This document shows, in pieces, positions 23,235 through 45,499 of a DNA stretch of 47,996 bases. This DNA comes from an uncultured Chloroflexota bacterium (lineage in GTDB: Bacteria; Chloroflexota; Dehalococcoidia; GIF9; AB-539-J10). Each line of letters starts with the position of its first letter. Within the stretch, counting starts at the first letter, position 1. Location of the stretch: positions 105,313 through 153,308 of the forward strand of contig CAISEW010000003.1 in NCBI GenBank assembly GCA_903884455.1, read 5' to 3'. The position numbers and the translations under genes were made by a program. The notes below the pieces were generated by a model, which did no database searches, was not told where the DNA came from, and worked only from the letters and a program-made list of their open reading frames with translations.

Positions 23235-23310
23235 GGGGATATAGCTCAATTGGGAGAGCGCTGCGTTCGCATCGCAGAGGTCGGGGGTTCGAATCCCCCT
23301 ATCTCCACCA
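23235..23310 (+). tRNA. tRNA-Ala (CGC)
   Basis: GGGGATA pairs with TATCTCC; anticodon loop TTCGCAT gives CGC; T-arm GGGGGTTCGAATCCCCC is intact; CCA is encoded at 23308-23310. First of seven tRNAs. Confidence 0.96.
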
Positions 23311-23347
23311 TAAAACCCGGGAAAGACGAGGGTTGTGGTAATAGCGT

Positions 23348-23421
23348 GCCCCTGTAGCTCAGATGGATAGAGCAGCGGTTTCCTAAACCGCGTGTCGGGC
23401 GTTCGAGTCGCCCCAGGGGTA
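23348..23421 (+). tRNA. tRNA-Arg (CCT)
   Basis: Acceptor GCCCCTG with CAGGGGT (a G-T pair at 1-72); anticodon loop TTCCTAA gives CCT; T-arm GGGCGTTCGAGTCGCCC. CCA is not encoded. Confidence 0.95.
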
Positions 23422-23445
23422 TTTTTGATATAATTACGCTGATTT

Positions 23446-23523
23446 AGGGGCGTAGCTCAGTTTGGCTAGAGCAGCGGTCTCCAAAACCGCAGGTCGCGGG
23501 TTCGAGTCCTGCCGCCCCTGCCA
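23446..23523 (+). tRNA. tRNA-Trp (CCA)
   Basis: Acceptor AGGGGCG with CGCCCCT; anticodon loop CTCCAAA gives CCA; discriminator G; 3' CCA encoded at 23521-23523. The next tRNA begins two bases later, so the two must be cut from one precursor. Confidence 0.96.
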
Positions 23524-23524
23524 G

Positions 23525-23611
23525 GCCGAGGTGGTGGAATAGGCAGACACGCCATCTTGAGGGGGTGGTGGGCGCAAGCCCGTGGGAGTTCAAATCTCCC
23601 CCTCGGCACCA
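23525..23611 (+). tRNA. tRNA-Leu (GAG)
   Basis: Class II tRNA with a long variable arm (GTGGGCGCAAGCCCGT). Acceptor GCCGAGG with CCTCGGC; anticodon loop TTGAGGG gives GAG with stem CCATC/GGTGG (one G-T pair); CCA encoded. Confidence 0.94.
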
Positions 23612-23657
23612 GGATTTGCTTGCGGGAACTAAAAAAAGACGGTAAAATCTGTTTAGG

Positions 23658-23732
23658 GCGGAAGTAGTTCAGCGGTAGAATGCTTCCTTGCCAAGGAAGA
23701 GGTCGCGGGTTCGAATCCCGTCTTCCGCTCCA
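23658..23732 (+). tRNA. tRNA-Gly (GCC)
   Basis: Acceptor GCGGAAG with CTTCCGC; anticodon stem CTTCC/GGAAG with loop TTGCCAA gives GCC; discriminator T; CCA encoded. Confidence 0.96.
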
Positions 23733-23749
23733 GTAAATTTGGTAGTTGC

Positions 23750-23822
23750 GGCGGTGTAGCCAAGAGGTTAAGGCAGGGGTCTGCAAAACCCCGATGCGGC
23801 GGTTCGAATCCGCCCGCCGCCT
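23750..23822 (+). tRNA. tRNA-Cys (GCA)
   Basis: Acceptor GGCGGTG with CGCCGCC; anticodon stem GGGGT/ACCCC with loop CTGCAAA gives GCA; discriminator T. The next bases are CCT, so CCA is not encoded. Confidence 0.95.
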
Positions 23823-23843
23823 CCTTGAGTTGTCAACTATCAG

Positions 23844-23926
23844 GCCGAGGTGGCGGAATGGTAGACGCGGCGGACTTAAAATCCGCTTCCTGCAAGGGAG
23901 TGTGGGTTCGAGTCCCTCCCTCGGCA
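23844..23926 (+). tRNA. tRNA-Leu (TAA)
   Basis: Class II with variable arm after the anticodon stem GCGGA/TCCGC; loop CTTAAAA gives TAA; acceptor GCCGAGG with CCTCGGC, the same as the other tRNA-Leu. CCA is not encoded. Confidence 0.95.
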
Positions 23927-25890: not shown

Positions 25891-26147
25891 CCAATGAGAT
25901 TGCCGCGCTCCCGCCTGCCATAGCTGTGCGGCGGGCAGGTCGTTCGCAATGACATCTCTTCTTGTCATTGCGAGGAGCACAGCGACGAAGCAATCTCGGT
26001 GGGGCTGGTGGAATGGGGATTGCCACGCCCCGACAAGTCGGGGCTCGCAATGACACACGCTCCCTGTCATTGCGAGGCTGACTTTAGTCAGCCGAAGCAA
26101 TCTCGGTGGGGGGCAATAGAGATTGCCACGATTCGTTCACACTGACA
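25891..26147. repeat. Three family A elements in a row
   Basis: 25891-25954 is a right half containing the 30-nt GC module (25910-25939, reverse orientation). 25963-26055 is a full copy with second arm CCCCGACAAGTCGGGG. 26065-26147 is a full copy with first arm GGCTGACTTTAGTCAGCC and a worn right end. They lie between the TackOD1 gene and the pilin promoter. Confidence 0.8.
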
Positions 26148-27113: not shown

Positions 27114-27233
27114 TTGCCCCTCTTAAGATAAGAGGGGCAAGGCCTGCCCGCCGAACAAATTCTTTGGCAGGCGGGGGAGTTATGGAAATTATGAAAATAA
27201 CCCCCTTTAATCCCCCTTACTTTAAGGGGGAGA
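27114..27233 (+). repeat. Family B repeat carrying the 33-nt GC module
   Basis: CCCCTCTTAAGATAAGAGGGG, CAAGG, then the module 27143-27175 (CCTGCCCGCC, loop, GGCAGGCGGG), then GGAGTTATGGAAATTATG and the right half ending CTTACTTTAAGGGGGAGA. Apart from the module it aligns with the empty copy at 24036. Confidence 0.8.
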
Positions 27234-29519: not shown

Positions 29520-29625
29520 TGTCATTGCGAGCGACCTGCCCGCCGCACAGCTATGGCAGGCGGGAGCGCGGCAATCTCATTATCTCCACGAGATTGCTTC
29601 GGCACTATCGTGCCTCGCAACGACA
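29520..29625. repeat. Family A element with GC module, copy 1 of a pair
   Basis: TGTCATTGCGAG, CGA, 30-nt GC module (29535-29564), AGCGCGGCAATCTC, centre, GAGATTGCTTCG, arm GGCACTATCGTGCC, TCGCAACGACA. The arms are in the opposite order to the 28-kb copies. The 406-nt gap between the surface protein and pilT is mainly this pair. Confidence 0.85.
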
Positions 29626-29634
29626 GAGAGAGGG

Positions 29635-29740
29635 TGTCATTGCGAGCGACCTGCCCGCCGTACAACTATGGCAGGCGGGAGCGCGGCAATCCCATGCCCC
29701 TCACCGAGATTGCTTCGTCGCTATGCTTCTCGCAATGACA
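29635..29740. repeat. Family A element with GC module, copy 2 of a pair
   Basis: Tandem neighbour of the previous copy: module at 29650-29679 with a changed loop (GTACAACTAT), and second arm CGTCGCTATGCTTCTCG instead of GGCACTATCGTGCC. Confidence 0.85.
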
Positions 29741-36278: not shown

Positions 36279-36350
36279 CATAACTCCCCCGCCTGCCAAA
36301 GAATTTGTTCGGCGGGCAGGCCTTGCCCCTCTTATCTTAAGAGGGGTACC
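36279..36350 (-). repeat. Family B left part with the 33-nt GC module
   Basis: The reverse complement of 36279-36350 matches the 27114 copy through GCAAGG, the module (36288-36320) and GGAGTTATG; the right half of the element is absent. It lies just upstream of the PilX-like gene. A partial family C run is at 36429-36461. Confidence 0.8.
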
Positions 36351-37021: not shown

Positions 37022-37180
37022 GGCGTGGCAATCTATATTGCCCCCACCGAAATTGCTTCGGCACTGTCGTGCCTCGCAACGACAGGGGGGATGTCATTGC
37101 GAGCGACCTGCCCGCCGCTTGCCTTCGCTGAAGCTTTAGCGCAAGCAGGCACAGCTATGGCAGGCGGGAGCGTGGCAATC
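37022..37180. repeat. Family A pieces, one with an enlarged GC module
   Basis: 37022-37084 is the right half (GTGGCAATCT, centre, AATTGCTTCG, arm GGCACTGTCGTGCC, TCGCAACGACA). 37092-37180 is a left half with TGTCATTGCGAG, CGA and a 62-nt module (37107-37168), which is the 30-nt module plus a 32-nt nested palindrome at its tip (CGCTGAAGCTTTAGCG). Confidence 0.82.
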
Positions 37181-38117: not shown

Positions 38118-38336
38118 ATGATGCCGCAAAGGATTCACGTAATCTACGAAAACGGGGTTCTCAAGCCGCTGGGCAAAGTGGATATTGCTGAACACCGGAC
38201 ATTAGAAATCCTCGTTCTCGAAGACGACTTGCCCTTGTCTGTTATCGGCCGGGTGGCAGAGCAAGGTGGCAGCTACGATTTCCTGCACCATGCTGCTGAG
38301 GACATTTACAGTGCTGATGATAGAGAGGCAGTCTAA
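38118..38336 (+). CDS. DUF104-family antitoxin
   Basis: 72 residues: RIHVIYENGVLKPLGKVDIAEHRTLEILVLEDD is the DUF104 beta-sheet core, and DIYSADDREAV the usual C-terminus. Tandem ATGs at 38118 and 38121. DUF104 proteins are antitoxins, usually of PIN-domain toxins; here the overlapping partner is PemK/MazF-like. Confidence 0.8.
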   Translation: MMPQRIHVIYENGVLKPLGKVDIAEHRTLEILVLEDDLPLSVIGRVAEQGGSYDFLHHAAEDIYSADDREAV

Positions 38337-38700
38337 GCGCAAGCCAGAAGCTGTGCTCGAACGCGGAGATATTGTTCTTGTCCCTTTTCCCTTTACCGAC
38401 CTGACCACTGAGAAGTTGCGGCCAGCAGTTATAATATCTGTGAACCCGCGGAGAATTGATGTTATCATCGCTTTTATCTCTTCCGTAGTCTCTCACGGAG
38501 AACTATCTGAAACTGATTATCTGCTGCACCAGGACAATCCTGATTTTGTCAAAACGGGTCTCAAGAAAACCTCGACTTTCAGAATGAGAAAATTGCTGAC
38601 CATCGAGCGAAGTAGAATCATTCGCCGTCTCAGCAGAGTCAGCCCTGCTATCCAGAAAGAACTGGACATAAGGCTAAGGCAGGCTGTTGGCCTGCAGTGA
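38317..38700 (+). CDS. PemK/MazF-family toxin
   Basis: 127 residues from ATG 38317, overlapping the DUF104 gene by 20 nt. RGDIVLVPFPFTDLTTEKLRPAVIIS is the MazF/PemK N-terminal signature; STFRMRKLLTIERSRIIRRLSRVS is the later conserved part. These toxins are sequence-specific endoribonucleases. Third toxin-antitoxin pair within 2.3 kb. Confidence 0.88.
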   Translation: MIERQSKRKPEAVLERGDIVLVPFPFTDLTTEKLRPAVIISVNPRRIDVIIAFISSVVSHGELSETDYLLHQDNPDFVKTGLKKTSTFRMRKLLTIERSRIIRRLSRVSPAIQKELDIRLRQAVGLQ

Positions 38701-38917: not shown

Positions 38918-39220
38918 CTAGACCCACATCATACCAGGCATCATCATCATCCTGTATGTCGTCACCCTGGGCTCTTCTATTAGAAGTGTTTCAGCTTGCA
39001 GGAGCAGTTCTTGCGTTATACTTGATTGTGCCCATAACTTCCAGTCATCAAGACTCTCCCATGTGCTTACCATGGCGACGACAGAGGCATTCTCCTCGCT
39101 GACAAGATTCTCGATGCCTTTGAAGCCCTGATATTGCGTAGCATGCGACTTGAGCTTGAGCAATATCGGCTCCAGGTCCCTGTCCCCCCTCACCTTGCAT
39201 CCTACTATACCCTTTATCAT
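38918..39220 (-). CDS. Antibiotic biosynthesis monooxygenase (ABM)-fold protein
   Basis: 100 residues with the dimeric ferredoxin-like ABM pattern: KGIVGCKVRG, LKSHATQYQGFKGIENL, ASVVAMVSTWESLDDWKLWAQS. Family members include small heme-degrading or quinol monooxygenases; no function can be assigned here. A near-perfect AAAGGAGG precedes ATG 39220. It sits alone in the toxin-antitoxin and repeat island inside the pilus region. Confidence 0.78.
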   Translation of the reverse strand: MIKGIVGCKVRGDRDLEPILLKLKSHATQYQGFKGIENLVSEENASVVAMVSTWESLDDWKLWAQSSITQELLLQAETLLIEEPRVTTYRMMMMPGMMWV

Positions 39221-39362
39221 TCCGCCTCCTTTGTGCTCTTGCCTGCATAAGCTCCGCAGGGGCGGGGCTCGTCCCCGGCCGAGATACTTCCTATCATCAT
39301 AATTATAGCACAGTCAACAAGCTTCAACTGCAAAGACGGGGGCGTCTTTGCGTGGCCAATTT

Positions 39363-39413
39363 CCTCTCCCTTGACCTGCTCGCCGTATGACTTCAGCAGG
39401 CGAGTGGGAGAGG
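39363..39413. repeat. CCTCTCCC/GGGAGAGG palindrome with a variant GC module
   Basis: CCTCTCCC and GGGAGAGG enclose TTGA and a 30-nt module (39375-39404) with arms CCTGCTCGCC and AGCAGGCGAG. The geometry equals the module in families A and B, but with one left-arm and two right-arm changes. Confidence 0.7.
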
Positions 39414-39446
39414 ATTAAGGTGAGAGTGAATTGTAAGGACTTTGCG

Positions 39447-39746
39447 AGTGAGGCGCGGCAATCTCTATTGCCCCACCGAGATTGCGGAGCCTGTTCCGAA
39501 GCGTAAGCGAGGAATCTCGCTTCTCACAATGACAAGGGGGTGGTGTCATTGCGAACACCTGAAAGGTGCGTGGCAATCTCTACTGCCCCACCGAGATTGC
39601 TTCGTCCCGATAAATCAGGACTCGCAATGACAGAAGGGGGGATGTCATCTTGAGCCCTTTCCATTTTGTCATTGCGAGCGAAGCGTGGCAATCTCTATTG
39701 CCCCCACCGAGATTGCTTCGGCTGACTTCGCCAGCCTCGCAATGAC
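39447..39746. repeat. Three family A elements before the PilW-like gene
   Basis: 39447-39534 has arm CGGAGCCTGTTCCG and a variant end. 39544-39632 has first arm GAACACCTGAAAGGTGCG. 39667-39746 has TGTCATTGCGAGCGAAGCGTGGCAATC without any module and second arm GGCTGACTTCGCCAGCC; it is the empty-site counterpart of the copies at 29.5 and 37 kb. A diverged family D stretch follows at 39768-39835. Confidence 0.82.
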
Positions 39747-39924: not shown

Positions 39925-40818
39925 TTATGAGACTGGTTTGGGCACAACTATATATGTCCTCGTTTCATTCTCTTGTTGCTGACCGGCGCCTGCTGTGGCT
40001 GTTACCGTGAGGATAAGCCCATTAGCGCTACTGAGCGTAGCAGGATTTGCACCGCTATCTACGGTTATGGCAGCAGTGGCAGCCTTAGTTTCGGACGTCC
40101 AGCTACCTTTTGTGTTAGAACTAGTGGCAGTAACTGTAATAGTGTCCCCAGTGGTGTTTGTTGTCCAGGTATAGCCGCCCGTAACTGAGACATAGGTAGC
40201 GTTGCCAGTTTTGGTGAGCGAGACGCTGCCACTAACAATTATGCTGCCGCTGTCAGATGTCGCCCCACCGGTAATCTTGAACGCATCACCAACATCAGGC
40301 AAGCTAAAGGCACTGCCACCACTAATTTGACAATTAGTTTTAGTTGTGTTGGAAATAAACGCAAACACAGGAATCTTACCAGTTTTCACTGAATTAAAGA
40401 CATCATTGACATAATAACTCCCCCTGAGACCAGAGCTAGTCAGGTTAAACACAACTTTCTGCTTTTGACTCGTGTCAAAATCGATCCAGCACATGATAAG
40501 GGGGAAACCTGAAACTCCAGTTATCGTCGTGTTTTGAGCCGAGTAGTCATAGAAGCTAACCCAATAGCCAGCCTCCTGCACTTGCCTGACAACAGCCATA
40601 TGGTGAGAGCTACGGCTACTCCCGGTAAATATCTGGGAAATAACCATGGTAACAGCTGCGGCGATAAGACCGACAATAGCGATACCTACCATTAGCTCAA
40701 GTATAGTAAAACCCTTCTGGCCTTTCTTTAGCTTTTTCATCTTCATTTGTTTAAGATTCAGCCGCGACCCTACAGAAATTCCCAATCTCAAGCTCCCATT
40801 TATAATTTGGGATTTCAT
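39925..40818 (-). CDS. PilW-like minor prepilin
   Basis: 297 residues from ATG 40818, or about 271 to 273 if ATG 40746 or 40740 is used. Prepilin site GQKG|FTILELMVGIAIVGLIAAAVTMVISQIF, then a large beta-rich domain with many Ser/Thr/Gly. The first 24 codons look like family D filler sequence, so the inner start is attractive, but the ribosome site (GAGGT) fits the outer one. It follows the PilV-like gene by 24 nt. Confidence 0.85.
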   Translation of the reverse strand: MKSQIINGSLRLGISVGSRLNLKQMKMKKLKKGQKGFTILELMVGIAIVGLIAAAVTMVISQIFTGSSRSSHHMAVVRQVQEAGYWVSFYDYSAQNTTITGVSGFPLIMCWIDFDTSQKQKVVFNLTSSGLRGSYYVNDVFNSVKTGKIPVFAFISNTTKTNCQISGGSAFSLPDVGDAFKITGGATSDSGSIIVSGSVSLTKTGNATYVSVTGGYTWTTNTTGDTITVTATSSNTKGSWTSETKAATAAITVDSGANPATLSSANGLILTVTATAGAGQQQENETRTYIVVPKPVS

Positions 40819-42829: not shown

Positions 42830-45127
42830 CTAAGTTATAACATAGGCATTGCGCAGTACCTCAGAAGGGGTGGTAATACCTTCCTTTACCTTGCGCATAC
42901 CATCGTTCCCCATAGATATCATACCCTCTTTAAGTGCCTGAGCCCGAATATCAGTACTGCTGGCTCGATCACTGACCAGCGTTCTTATCGAGTCGCTCAT
43001 AGTTAGAATTTCAAAGATTCCCGTACGCCCCAGGTAACCGGTATAGGTGCAGGACTTACAGCCGGTACCATAGAGAAACTTGGTTTGCTTCTCCCCCATT
43101 TCCTTTTCATAAGCCATTTGCTCGACCAAGGGGGCTTCCATAAGGTGACTGCAATCGGGGCAGATACGGCGTACCATCCGCTGAGCGACAACACCAATAA
43201 CCGCTGAGGCTATCAAGAAAGGCTCTATCTTCAGGTCAAGGAGACGGGAGAGCACACCGGCAACTTCATTGGCATGGATAGAAGACAGCATCAGGTGCCC
43301 GGTTAAGGCTGCCTGGACAGCTATGCTAGCTGTCTCGGCATCGCGTATCTCACCAACCAATATGACATCAGGGTCAAGACGAAGTATAGACCTCAAGCCA
43401 CTGGCAAAGGTAATGCCCGCCTGGTTATTGACCTGAATCTGGTTAATATCCTTGAAGCGGTATTCAGCAGGGTCTTCAATGGTAATGATGTTGCTCCCCT
43501 GAGTATCAAGGGAACTTATTGAGGCATATAAAGTGGTAGTTTTGCCAGCTCCAGTAGGACCGCTAATCAGAATCATACCATAGGGAACTTTGAGCATACT
43601 GTCATACTTTGCCAGGCTATCAGGGAGCATACCAAGCTGTGCTAACCCCAGAGTAGCCATTGACTTATCCAGAAGCCGCAGGGTGGCTGTCTCGCCCCAG
43701 ACAGTAGGAGCGGTGGCAACTCTGACATCTATCTCTCGCCCTTTAGCTTCGGTAGAGAATTGACCATCTTGAGGACGAAAATGGTCAGCAATATTCATTT
43801 CAGCCAGGATTTTAATTCGTGAAATGAGTGCTCGATGTATAGTTGAAGGTAGAGACATCGTATCTTGAAGAATGCCATCTATACGGTAGCGTATTCGTAA
43901 TCTATCTTCTTCTGGTTCAATATGAATGTCAGATGCGCGGGCTTTGACTGCCTCATCAATTAAAAGGTTGAGAGCCTGAACCAGTGGGGTATCAGTAGCA
44001 ATACTAATGGCAAGCTTCTCATCAGTTTCTCCAGCCGGGATAGAGATGCTAGAAACATGCTTTTCAATTTCGCTATAGGCTTTATAATTGAAGTCAAGAG
44101 CGTCCCTGATTTCCTCGACAGTGGCAGCTACAGGCTTAATCCTCATTCGAGTCTGGGCGACAAGAGCCTCTAAGGCAAAGATATCGGTCGGGTCTGCCAT
44201 GGCCACTTCCAGTGTCTTACCCGATATAGTCAGGGGTATGGCATTGTATCTCCTCGCTAGCGCCTCGGGAATCAATTGTAATGCCTCAGGTTGGGGTGTC
44301 TGCCTTAGTAGCTTGGCGTGAACCTTATCTATCTTAACTGGCTTCTCTGCTCCCCGGACAGGCAACTCTTCAGTCACAAGTTTAGGAACTGGTTTTTGAC
44401 CCAACTTAAGGACTTTTATCTGCTGGTGCTGGGCAAATTGCTGTGCCTCGGGGCTAAGCCCCACTGACACCACAATGACTTTCTCATCAACGCCAACCTC
44501 ATAGGCTTTAGTATCAAATAACATTACCTGTTCCAGGCTCACTTCTTTATCCCCATTCAGGAAATCTACACCCAGCCTATGCTCAACCTGACCGTTTTCA
44601 TCATGAGCCAGTATATCAAAGGTATATTCAATCCCGGACCGACCTTTAACTTTGGCTTTCTCTTTTATTCCATAGCCCCGGTTGGCTAAAGATTTGACCA
44701 GTTCCTCTTTTGTCTCAAACCTAACCGGCTCCTCGGGCTTAGCTGCCTTCGCGGGTTTCAAGGTTAATAGTTGCCCAATTTGTTCTCCATCAATAACCTT
44801 TATTCGCTGCTTGCGAGCCAGCTGTTTTGCCTCTTCACTAAGATCAGGGATGGCAATAAGAATCCTGTCCAGGATACCGCAATCATAGGCTTTATTGGCA
44901 AGGCTGAAAATAGTGCCCACTTCTATCTCCCTATCGCCACCAGCAGCAATGCCGATAGCAATAGTGTAGCTCGTGAAACCATCGTTTCTTTGAGCCAGCA
45001 TATCAAAGGTATGCTCAATTCCTGAGTTCCCGAGGTGCTTAGCTCCCTCGGTTACTGCATACCCCTGCTGCTCCAGATACTCTCTAATCTGTGTCCTTAG
45101 CTCCAAACCGATTTTCGTCTGACGCAT
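42830..45127 (-). CDS. pilB: Type IV pilus extension ATPase PilB with two N-terminal Mrr-like domains
   Basis: 765 residues from ATG 45127 (GGAG 7 nt upstream; a TTG at 45157 is less likely). Residues 10-245 are two degenerate Mrr/PD-(D/E)XK-like domains (GYAVTEGAKHLGNSGIEH and GYGIKEKAKVKGRSGIEY, each followed by D-[MI]-LA, a KAY helix and an EAxQxA helix). Next come an MshEN-type domain (KLLRQTPQPEALQLIPEALA), RASDIHIEPEEDRLRIRYR, Walker A GPTGAGKTT near 522, TIEDPAEY, DPDVILVGEIRDAETA, and the zinc site CPDC/CKSC. PilB normally has MshEN domains and no nuclease-like ones. It drives pilus growth with PilC; the added domains may sense a ligand (inference). Confidence 0.93.
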   Translation of the reverse strand: MRQTKIGLELRTQIREYLEQQGYAVTEGAKHLGNSGIEHTFDMLAQRNDGFTSYTIAIGIAAGGDREIEVGTIFSLANKAYDCGILDRILIAIPDLSEEAKQLARKQRIKVIDGEQIGQLLTLKPAKAAKPEEPVRFETKEELVKSLANRGYGIKEKAKVKGRSGIEYTFDILAHDENGQVEHRLGVDFLNGDKEVSLEQVMLFDTKAYEVGVDEKVIVVSVGLSPEAQQFAQHQQIKVLKLGQKPVPKLVTEELPVRGAEKPVKIDKVHAKLLRQTPQPEALQLIPEALARRYNAIPLTISGKTLEVAMADPTDIFALEALVAQTRMRIKPVAATVEEIRDALDFNYKAYSEIEKHVSSISIPAGETDEKLAISIATDTPLVQALNLLIDEAVKARASDIHIEPEEDRLRIRYRIDGILQDTMSLPSTIHRALISRIKILAEMNIADHFRPQDGQFSTEAKGREIDVRVATAPTVWGETATLRLLDKSMATLGLAQLGMLPDSLAKYDSMLKVPYGMILISGPTGAGKTTTLYASISSLDTQGSNIITIEDPAEYRFKDINQIQVNNQAGITFASGLRSILRLDPDVILVGEIRDAETASIAVQAALTGHLMLSSIHANEVAGVLSRLLDLKIEPFLIASAVIGVVAQRMVRRICPDCSHLMEAPLVEQMAYEKEMGEKQTKFLYGTGCKSCTYTGYLGRTGIFEILTMSDSIRTLVSDRASSTDIRAQALKEGMISMGNDGMRKVKEGITTPSEVLRNAYVIT

Positions 45128-45499
45128 CTCCCACTCCGTTTTTTGCAATTCAGGCAAAGTGTAATTCGCCTATTGGCTCGAGTCAAGATTGTTAACCATG
45201 TCTTAACCCAAGCTAATCAGGGCGTAATAATCTACCTTTCCCATAACCTAGATACAATTTAGCACATCTCATCAGTTTGTCAATAGAACTTTTGGGGGAG
45301 TCCCTCCCAGTCAGTAGTCAGAAGTCAGAAGTCAGTAGTCAGTAGCCACTAGGGGAATCTTCTGAATGCTGGATTCTGACTACTGGCTACTAATTTGGAG
45401 ATTTGGTGCTTGGGATTTATCCCTTTGTAAGGGGGTGTCGCGCAATGACTTTTACACCACTATTTCTGCGAATTACTATAATTGCCTGTAAAGCGGCAG
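45128..45499. other. Intergenic region with family C repeat
   Basis: 372 nt between pilB and the LuxR-family regulator. 45309-45392 is a family C repeat whose two ends are reverse complements (AGTCAGTAGCC and GGCTACT); a family D scrap (TTTGGTGCTTGGGATT) follows. The part nearest pilB should hold its promoter; AT-rich sequence near 45230-45285 is suitable but no clear hexamer pair was settled. Confidence 0.6.

Follow-up and report, generated by a model that had tools for sequence, protein, structure and literature searches.

A CCTG-tagged hairpin carrying the complement of its own tag: a candidate mobile element in a Chloroflexota genome

Genomic setting and parts of the module

The window, by which we mean the whole 47,996-nt stretch of DNA analysed here, belongs to an uncultured Chloroflexota bacterium whose genome comprises 1.56 Mb in 63 contigs and is 99.5% complete. 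A 30-nt module with the sequence CCTGCTCGCC GTATGACTTC AGCAGGCGAG occupies positions 39375–39404, in the intergenic region between the ORFs at 38918–39220 and 39925–40818. Nearby genes encode proteins with matches to type IV pilus and type II secretion families and to a MazF-like toxin family; the MazF/PemK-like toxin ORF itself lies at 38266–38700 and adjoins a repeat-rich stretch. The ORF for a GspE/PilB-like ATPase at 42830–45157 has an N-terminal match to an Mrr-type restriction endonuclease domain (PF04471, E 7e-10), an unusual fusion. Seven tRNA genes clustered at 23235–23926 are the only Rfam matches in the window, and the module has none. Repeats of the type TGTCATTGCGAG...GGCAATCTC are abundant in both orientations between 20407 and 41495, and several of them are host sites of modules. 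The module and its immediate surroundings are as follows, with the basis of each assignment in brackets.

39363–39374, + strand: left half of the host palindrome, CCTCTCCC, with its loop TTGA, interrupted by the module (sequence; empty copies)
39375–39404, + strand: the module, an exact 30-nt insertion and CCTG-tagged hairpin of the B/T6 subfamily (sequence; six of six pairs in both registers; empty sites)
39375–39378, + strand: 5' tag CCTG (word w1), which the favoured single-strand fold leaves free (DNA fold, unpaired probability 0.97)
39379–39384, + strand: 5' arm of the favoured stem, CTCGCC, made of w2 (CTCG) and CC (pairing scan; folds)
39385–39394, + strand: loop GTATGACTTC, of the lineage of the loops GTACAACTTT and GTACGACTTC (rows compared by eye)
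39397–39400, + strand: anti-tag CAGG (w1'), the complement of the tag (pairing scan; conservation)
39399–39404, + strand: 3' arm of the favoured stem, GGCGAG, made of GG and w2' (CGAG) (pairing scan; folds)
39405–39413, + strand: right half of the host palindrome, T followed by GGGAGAGG (sequence; empty copies)
39671–39692, + strand: empty host site, ATTGCGAGCGA joined to AGCGTGGCAAT at 39681/39682 (sequence; no mismatch to the flanks of the filled copy L016 once these are joined)

Pairing registers and folding

The initial annotation held that the 39375 copy is paired in two alternative registers, and both are complete: left-arm positions 1–6 with right-arm positions 1–6 (register 1; 39375–39380 opposite 39395–39400) and left 5–10 with right 5–10 (register 2) each give six of six Watson–Crick pairs. 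Its statement that the arms are not simple inverted repeats applies to the 39375 copy, in which 5 of 10 positions pair in the full inverted register, but not in the same way to the canonical copies, which reach 8 of 10 there and are imperfect inverted repeats too.

A scan of the window for pairing in both registers (loop of 3–44 nt, at least 11 of 12 pairs) gave 16 hits, and all eight with 12 of 12 pairs belong to the module family. The remaining eight, with 11 of 12, consist of four shifted or nested module parts and four chance hits, mostly AT-rich. Chance is ruled out as the source of the double pairing, as 12 of 12 pairs occur at no site in the window outside the module family.

Eight modules were folded with DNA parameters, using the strand that begins with CCTG. 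Register 2 had the highest mean pair probability among the compared registers in seven, the exception being a module with the loop AAGGCTT, which prefers the full inverted register; register 1 ranged from 0.00 to 0.26 across all eight. The four 5' bases, CCTG, were unpaired with a mean probability of 0.54–0.99 in those seven modules and 0.23 in the eighth. The module within its host palindrome (39355–39424) folds with a z score of -3.5, and 0 of 200 shuffles fold as well. These energies do not support the proposal of a balanced switchable hairpin: register 2 is favoured in naked strands, with register 1 at most 0.26, so that the equilibrium is not balanced, and switching would depend on a protein or a transient state.

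Copies in the window and in the genome

About 20 separate module sites turn up in pattern searches of the host genome. Those of the window, besides the 39375 copy, were recovered by both the pattern search and the both-register scan, and two of them also by comparison with empty sites:

25910–25939, - strand: canonical copy with loop GCACAGCTAT
27143–27175, + strand: canonical copy with loop GAACAAATTCTTT
29535–29564, + strand: canonical copy with loop GCACAGCTAT, inside ATTGCGAGCGA/AGCGCGGCAAT (also empty-site comparison)
29650–29679, + strand: canonical copy with loop GTACAACTAT, in the same host repeat as at 29535 (also empty-site comparison)
36288–36320, - strand: canonical copy with loop GAACAAATTCTTT
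37107–37168, + strand: canonical copy with another hairpin nested in its loop
37850–37911, + strand: second copy, with a nested hairpin as in the 37107 copy

The nested hairpin, 32 nt long (CTTGCCTTCGCTGAAGCTTTAGCGCAAGCAGG), sits at the same point in both of the last two copies, which are 743 nt apart.

Exact insertion

The 39375 stretch is one copy of an exact, duplication-free insertion. It interrupts a host sequence between CCTCTCCCTTGA and TGGGAGAGG, and the uninterrupted form, TCTCCCTTGATGGGAGAGGATTAAGGTGAG, is present elsewhere in the same genome (G000:C37:7864-7893), with a further empty site in L015. Among 67 distinct copies with flanks, 26 could be matched to an empty site that differs at no more than 4 of 28 positions; joins that assume a target duplication of 1–6 nt give at least 5 mismatches in all 26, and insertion thus occurs without duplication. 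The element is 27–40 nt long. The base 5' of CCTG is a purine in 60 of the 67 copies (33 A, 27 G). Modules are found in many unrelated host repeats and in both orientations, and they are also nested in one another, often exactly between a stem word and the inner loop, or within the loop. By a strict score, insertion at palindrome tips applies to a minority (7 of 67 copies reach a flank palindrome score of 5 or higher, where shuffling yields 0.7 on average), which rules it out as a general rule.

Distribution across phyla and phages

An identical 30-mer with the loop GTACAACTTT is shared by the host genome, a second genome (G007), a Chloroflexi record and a Bacteroidota record. Viral contigs contain 36 matching stretches. 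Four of these contigs (L200, L205, L211 and L216) carry a 27-nt module at one site in a phage portal gene, and the same site is empty in three others (L225–L227); in L200 the module is in frame, adding nine codons to a gene that matches the portal family with an E value of 6e-32. Another copy seems to lie elsewhere in the portal gene of L212. One 30-mer had no match among 72,556 plasmid records.

Comparison with known elements

Insertion without target duplication is a property of the IS200/IS605 family, and the module shares it (an empty site is known for 26 of 67 copies, and a 1–6 nt duplication fits none of these). The family also has, according to the accounts of IS608 in PMC6006769 and PMC8266576, a guide tetranucleotide 5' of the hairpin that is complementary to the terminal tetranucleotide; in these accounts, the 5' tetranucleotide of both IS608 and REP sequences is a guide for cleavage and pairs with the cut site. 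Unlike the family members, the module has no transposase gene inside (the whole element being 27–40 nt) and one hairpin rather than two ends, its words are fully Watson–Crick complementary, and its target is no fixed tetranucleotide, a purine being the one preference (60 of 67).

REP sequences with GTAG or CGTC tags are, in the account of PMC3733652, dispersed hairpins of 20–40 nt with a 5' tetranucleotide tag; some families are inserted inside other palindromes, and CGTC families lack a dedicated transposase. The module is likewise short, palindromic and multi-copy, and probably mostly extragenic (the 39375 site is intergenic; some copies lie in phage genes), and it has a tetranucleotide at its 5' foot, with CCTG unpaired in seven of eight folds. 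The tag itself is different, CCTG instead of the GTAG/GTGG or CGTC of the known superfamilies. The module also keeps the complement of its tag inside, its stem word covaries in crossed order, it is common to Bacteroidota and Chloroflexota, and its canonical copies rarely adjoin Y1 genes. We place it among REP-like mobile hairpins, with a new tag and an internal tag complement, and outside the GTAG and CGTC superfamilies. No CCTG-tagged family is named among the literature matches listed, and of 148 papers that contain one of the four arm words, the 25 listed do not deal with such repeats, judging by title or abstract. The very small mobile repeats of cyanobacteria are tiny, dispersed and thought to be mobile, and differ from the module in sequence, structure and hosts; Rickettsia palindromic elements are palindromic insertions inside genes and differ in length, sequence and hosts.

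Candidate enzymes

An HuH (Y1) transposase is plausible as the mover. The unpaired CCTG at the hairpin foot counts for it, as does the enrichment of Y1 genes in module-rich genomes: in the class of the Bacteroidota genome G034 (197 genomes), the median number of Y1 genes is 7 where there are 10 or more pattern matches (14 genomes, none lacking a Y1 gene) and 2 elsewhere (183 genomes; one-sided p 7e-5). Over all 197 the number of Y1 genes and the number of pattern matches have a Spearman correlation of 0.27; these figures are uncorrected for ancestry, genome size and chance pattern hits. Y1 genes are present in all eight Bacteroidota, Chlorobiota and Ignavibacteria hosts tested. However, the Y1_Tnp gene is absent from all eight Chloroflexota hosts tested, including the present genome at 99.5% completeness, which counts against an HuH enzyme and, within this genome, makes a RAYT of its own an unlikely driver. 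The lack of a fixed target tetranucleotide beyond the purine also counts against it, as does the rarity of canonical modules at Y1 loci, which were found in 2 of 50 examined (in one of the two within 500 nt of the gene); modules are thus unlikely to be the flanking repeats of Y1 genes.

Two of the Y1 loci have hairpins on both sides of the gene. In L177 (G494:C24, 1551–2712), a Y1 transposase gene lies between copies of a 178-nt block with CCTGCCTG...CAGGCAGG hairpins; a canonical module is inserted in one upstream block copy, and CCTG-word hairpins occur on both sides of the gene. In L175 (G596:C16), the Y1 gene lies between identical CGTC-tagged hairpins at 1433–1460 and 2106–2133, in which the tag is also complementary, in crossed fashion, to a word in the 3' stem. 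The L175 arrangement may reflect chance or a shared design. Duplicated crossed words near the genes of both loci were set aside as possible chance occurrences, eight-pair crossed words being present elsewhere in the same loci.

It may also be that the same hairpin is moved by a different agent, such as an IS110-type bridge-RNA recombinase, a tyrosine recombinase, or host repair at hairpin tips. The absence of Y1_Tnp from the Chloroflexota hosts, the exact joins and the nested and palindrome-centred insertions described above would suit such a mover, while the position of the tag at the hairpin foot and the Y1 enrichment in module-rich Bacteroidota would not; we regard it as rather unlikely, at about one quarter of the weight of belief.

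Covariation and conservation in the arms

The crossed order of the complementary words, described in the initial annotation, proves to be a rule and not a coincidence. With six positions free (L6 and L7 in the left arm; R1, R4, R8 and R9 in the right), the search gave 94 rows. All four discriminating crossed pairs were complementary in 40 of the 74 rows from five module-bearing genomes, versus 2 with all four inverted pairs; in the remaining 20 rows, which come from the rest of the genus, both counts were 0. A perfect palindrome is ruled out by this dominance of crossed order.

The T at left position 6 of the 39375 copy, with A at right positions 1 and 9 and both registers paired, was correctly described. 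As a case of covariation it fares less well: the state is real, but it is one inherited subfamily state rather than a fresh double compensation in a single copy. The subfamily has the loop GTATGACTYC and five copies in the host genome (C3:144687, C16:85200, C37:33331, C37:35795 and C50:7477), and the same state occurs in genomes G003 and G023. Five genomes of the host genus supply 61 short-loop rows. The 20 rows with T6 have A at right position 9 in 18 cases and at right position 1 in 15, against one each in the 38 rows with C6. Rows of G003 like CCTGCTCGCC GTACGACTTC GGCAGGCGAG have T6 and A9 but G1, and a third loop (GAACAAGTTCTTT) shows the same combination. From their sequences, the G003 rows resemble an intermediate state, with register 2 compensated first and register 1 left with a G.T wobble. 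The triple change is also present on the loop AAGCTTT (G003:C68), directly beside a T6 copy, so exchange between copies may explain it there.

On the Bacteroidota side (197 genomes, positions L6, L7, R1, R8 and R9 free), matches were found in 83 genomes. The second words are complementary in 57 of 143 distinct sequences among the matches listed, against 14.2 in shuffles (0 of 20000 reach 57), and after collapsing by words and length in 28 of 109 against 9.0 (0 of 20000); related copies are not fully independent, so that these shuffle counts are not probabilities, and some of the matches are chance hits from GC-rich genomes, so that the signal is diluted. Among the matches listed, the covariation spans many loops and eight dinucleotide types. 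Register 2 is thus a real covarying stem. Uncompensated changes at L7 and R8 occur in rows of the genus. Matches listed from 393 genomes of the window's own class are mostly chance-looking and come from GC-rich genomes.

Register 1 places the invariant 5' tag CCTG opposite the internal anti-tag CAGG. Covariation for this register, which had also been suggested, is not supported: the words almost never vary and covariation therefore says little about them, and the one testable extra pair, L6:R1, is Watson–Crick in 28 of 57 of the sequences listed and fails in 29. The evidence here is conservation. In a search that fixed the tag and the stem but not right-arm bases 1–4, CA or TA stands at bases 3–4 in 76 of the 82 distinct sequences from G472 and in 34 of the 37 from G578, TA keeping the pairing with the tag through G.T. 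G472 has well over 200 tagged hairpins, mostly of exactly 36 nt, with constant arms and a hypervariable 16-nt loop; among 66 distinct 36-mers an average of 9.3 of the 16 loop positions differ, and loop positions 11–24 hold 0.1–1.0 bits versus 1.7–2.0 bits at positions 27–30 (GGCA, before the 3' arm). Register 1 is conserved even though right-arm bases 3–4 are not needed for the register-2 stem, and something retains the tag's complement. Versions with three words, again in crossed order, occur in G430, G490 and G517 as overlapping matches on both strands; the one read out, from G430, is CGTG CCTG CACG ... CACG CAGG CGTG.

The second register could instead be a by-product of a four-base (CCYG) periodicity and common descent, with one functional stem and no selection on the pairing of tag and anti-tag. 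CCTG and CCCG are the commonest words, the T6 copies of the genus are mostly one family, and the frequent failure of L6:R1 and the uncompensated L7/R8 changes point the same way. However, second words such as CACG, CGTG, CTTG and CCAG break the period while CCTG and CAGG stay (CAGG being fixed in one search pattern), CA or TA before the 3' arm is kept when free in two genomes, and the order is crossed and not inverted, all of which makes this explanation improbable. An RNA-level bistable hairpin acting in transcripts as a terminator, mRNA stabiliser or switch, suggested by the GC-rich hairpin and the intergenic 39375 site, is very unlikely given that modules insert exactly into many unrelated host repeats, in either orientation, that copies lie inside phage coding genes and that there is no Rfam match.

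Proposed mode of movement and its meaning

The plan of the element is tag CCTG, stem word w2, loop, anti-tag CAGG and stem word w2'. In single-stranded DNA, w2 and CC pair with GG and w2', so that CCTG stays unpaired at the hairpin's 5' foot, an arrangement shared with REP sequences and IS200/IS605 ends; alternatively, the tag can pair with the internal CAGG. The hairpin would be moved as a single strand by an HuH (Y1-type) transposase acting in trans, with CCTG as a guide, and the cut position would be fixed by word pairing across the loop, either between tag and anti-tag or between the word 5' of the inner loop and the 3'-terminal word. That the 39375 stretch is one copy of a CCTG-tagged, non-autonomous mobile DNA hairpin moved in this way is the best explanation, to which we give about an even chance. 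The purine before the tag, exact insertion, the filled and empty portal alleles, anti-tag conservation and crossed covariation count for it; the minor share of register 1 in naked DNA and the preference of the AAGGCTT module for the inverted register count against it.

The initial annotation had concluded that the hairpin is switchable and either under selection or copied by a mechanism that uses both registers. Its crossed order, the covariation of register 2 and the conservation of register 1 stand, while covariation of register 1 and an even switch do not. A copying mechanism using both registers, modified to a tag and anti-tag in a mobile hairpin, is possible and is the reading we favour. 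More tentatively, and with rather more doubt than belief, the modules may form a third, CCTG-tagged superfamily of mobile hairpins across Bacteroidota, Chlorobiota/Ignavibacteria, Chloroflexota and phages that carries its own tag complement. The two registers would then be a device in which one fold exposes the tag for the enzyme and the other hides it, and w2/w2' and tag/anti-tag would be guide and cut-site pairs, one for each strand.

If the proposed mode of movement is right, a 30-letter hairpin carries both a tag and its complement, is shared between phyla, occurs in phage genes and inserts exactly and without duplication. It would provide a minimal substrate on which to test single-strand transposition and the choice of cut site by a guide tetranucleotide, and it would explain many nested GC-rich repeats in metagenome-assembled genomes.
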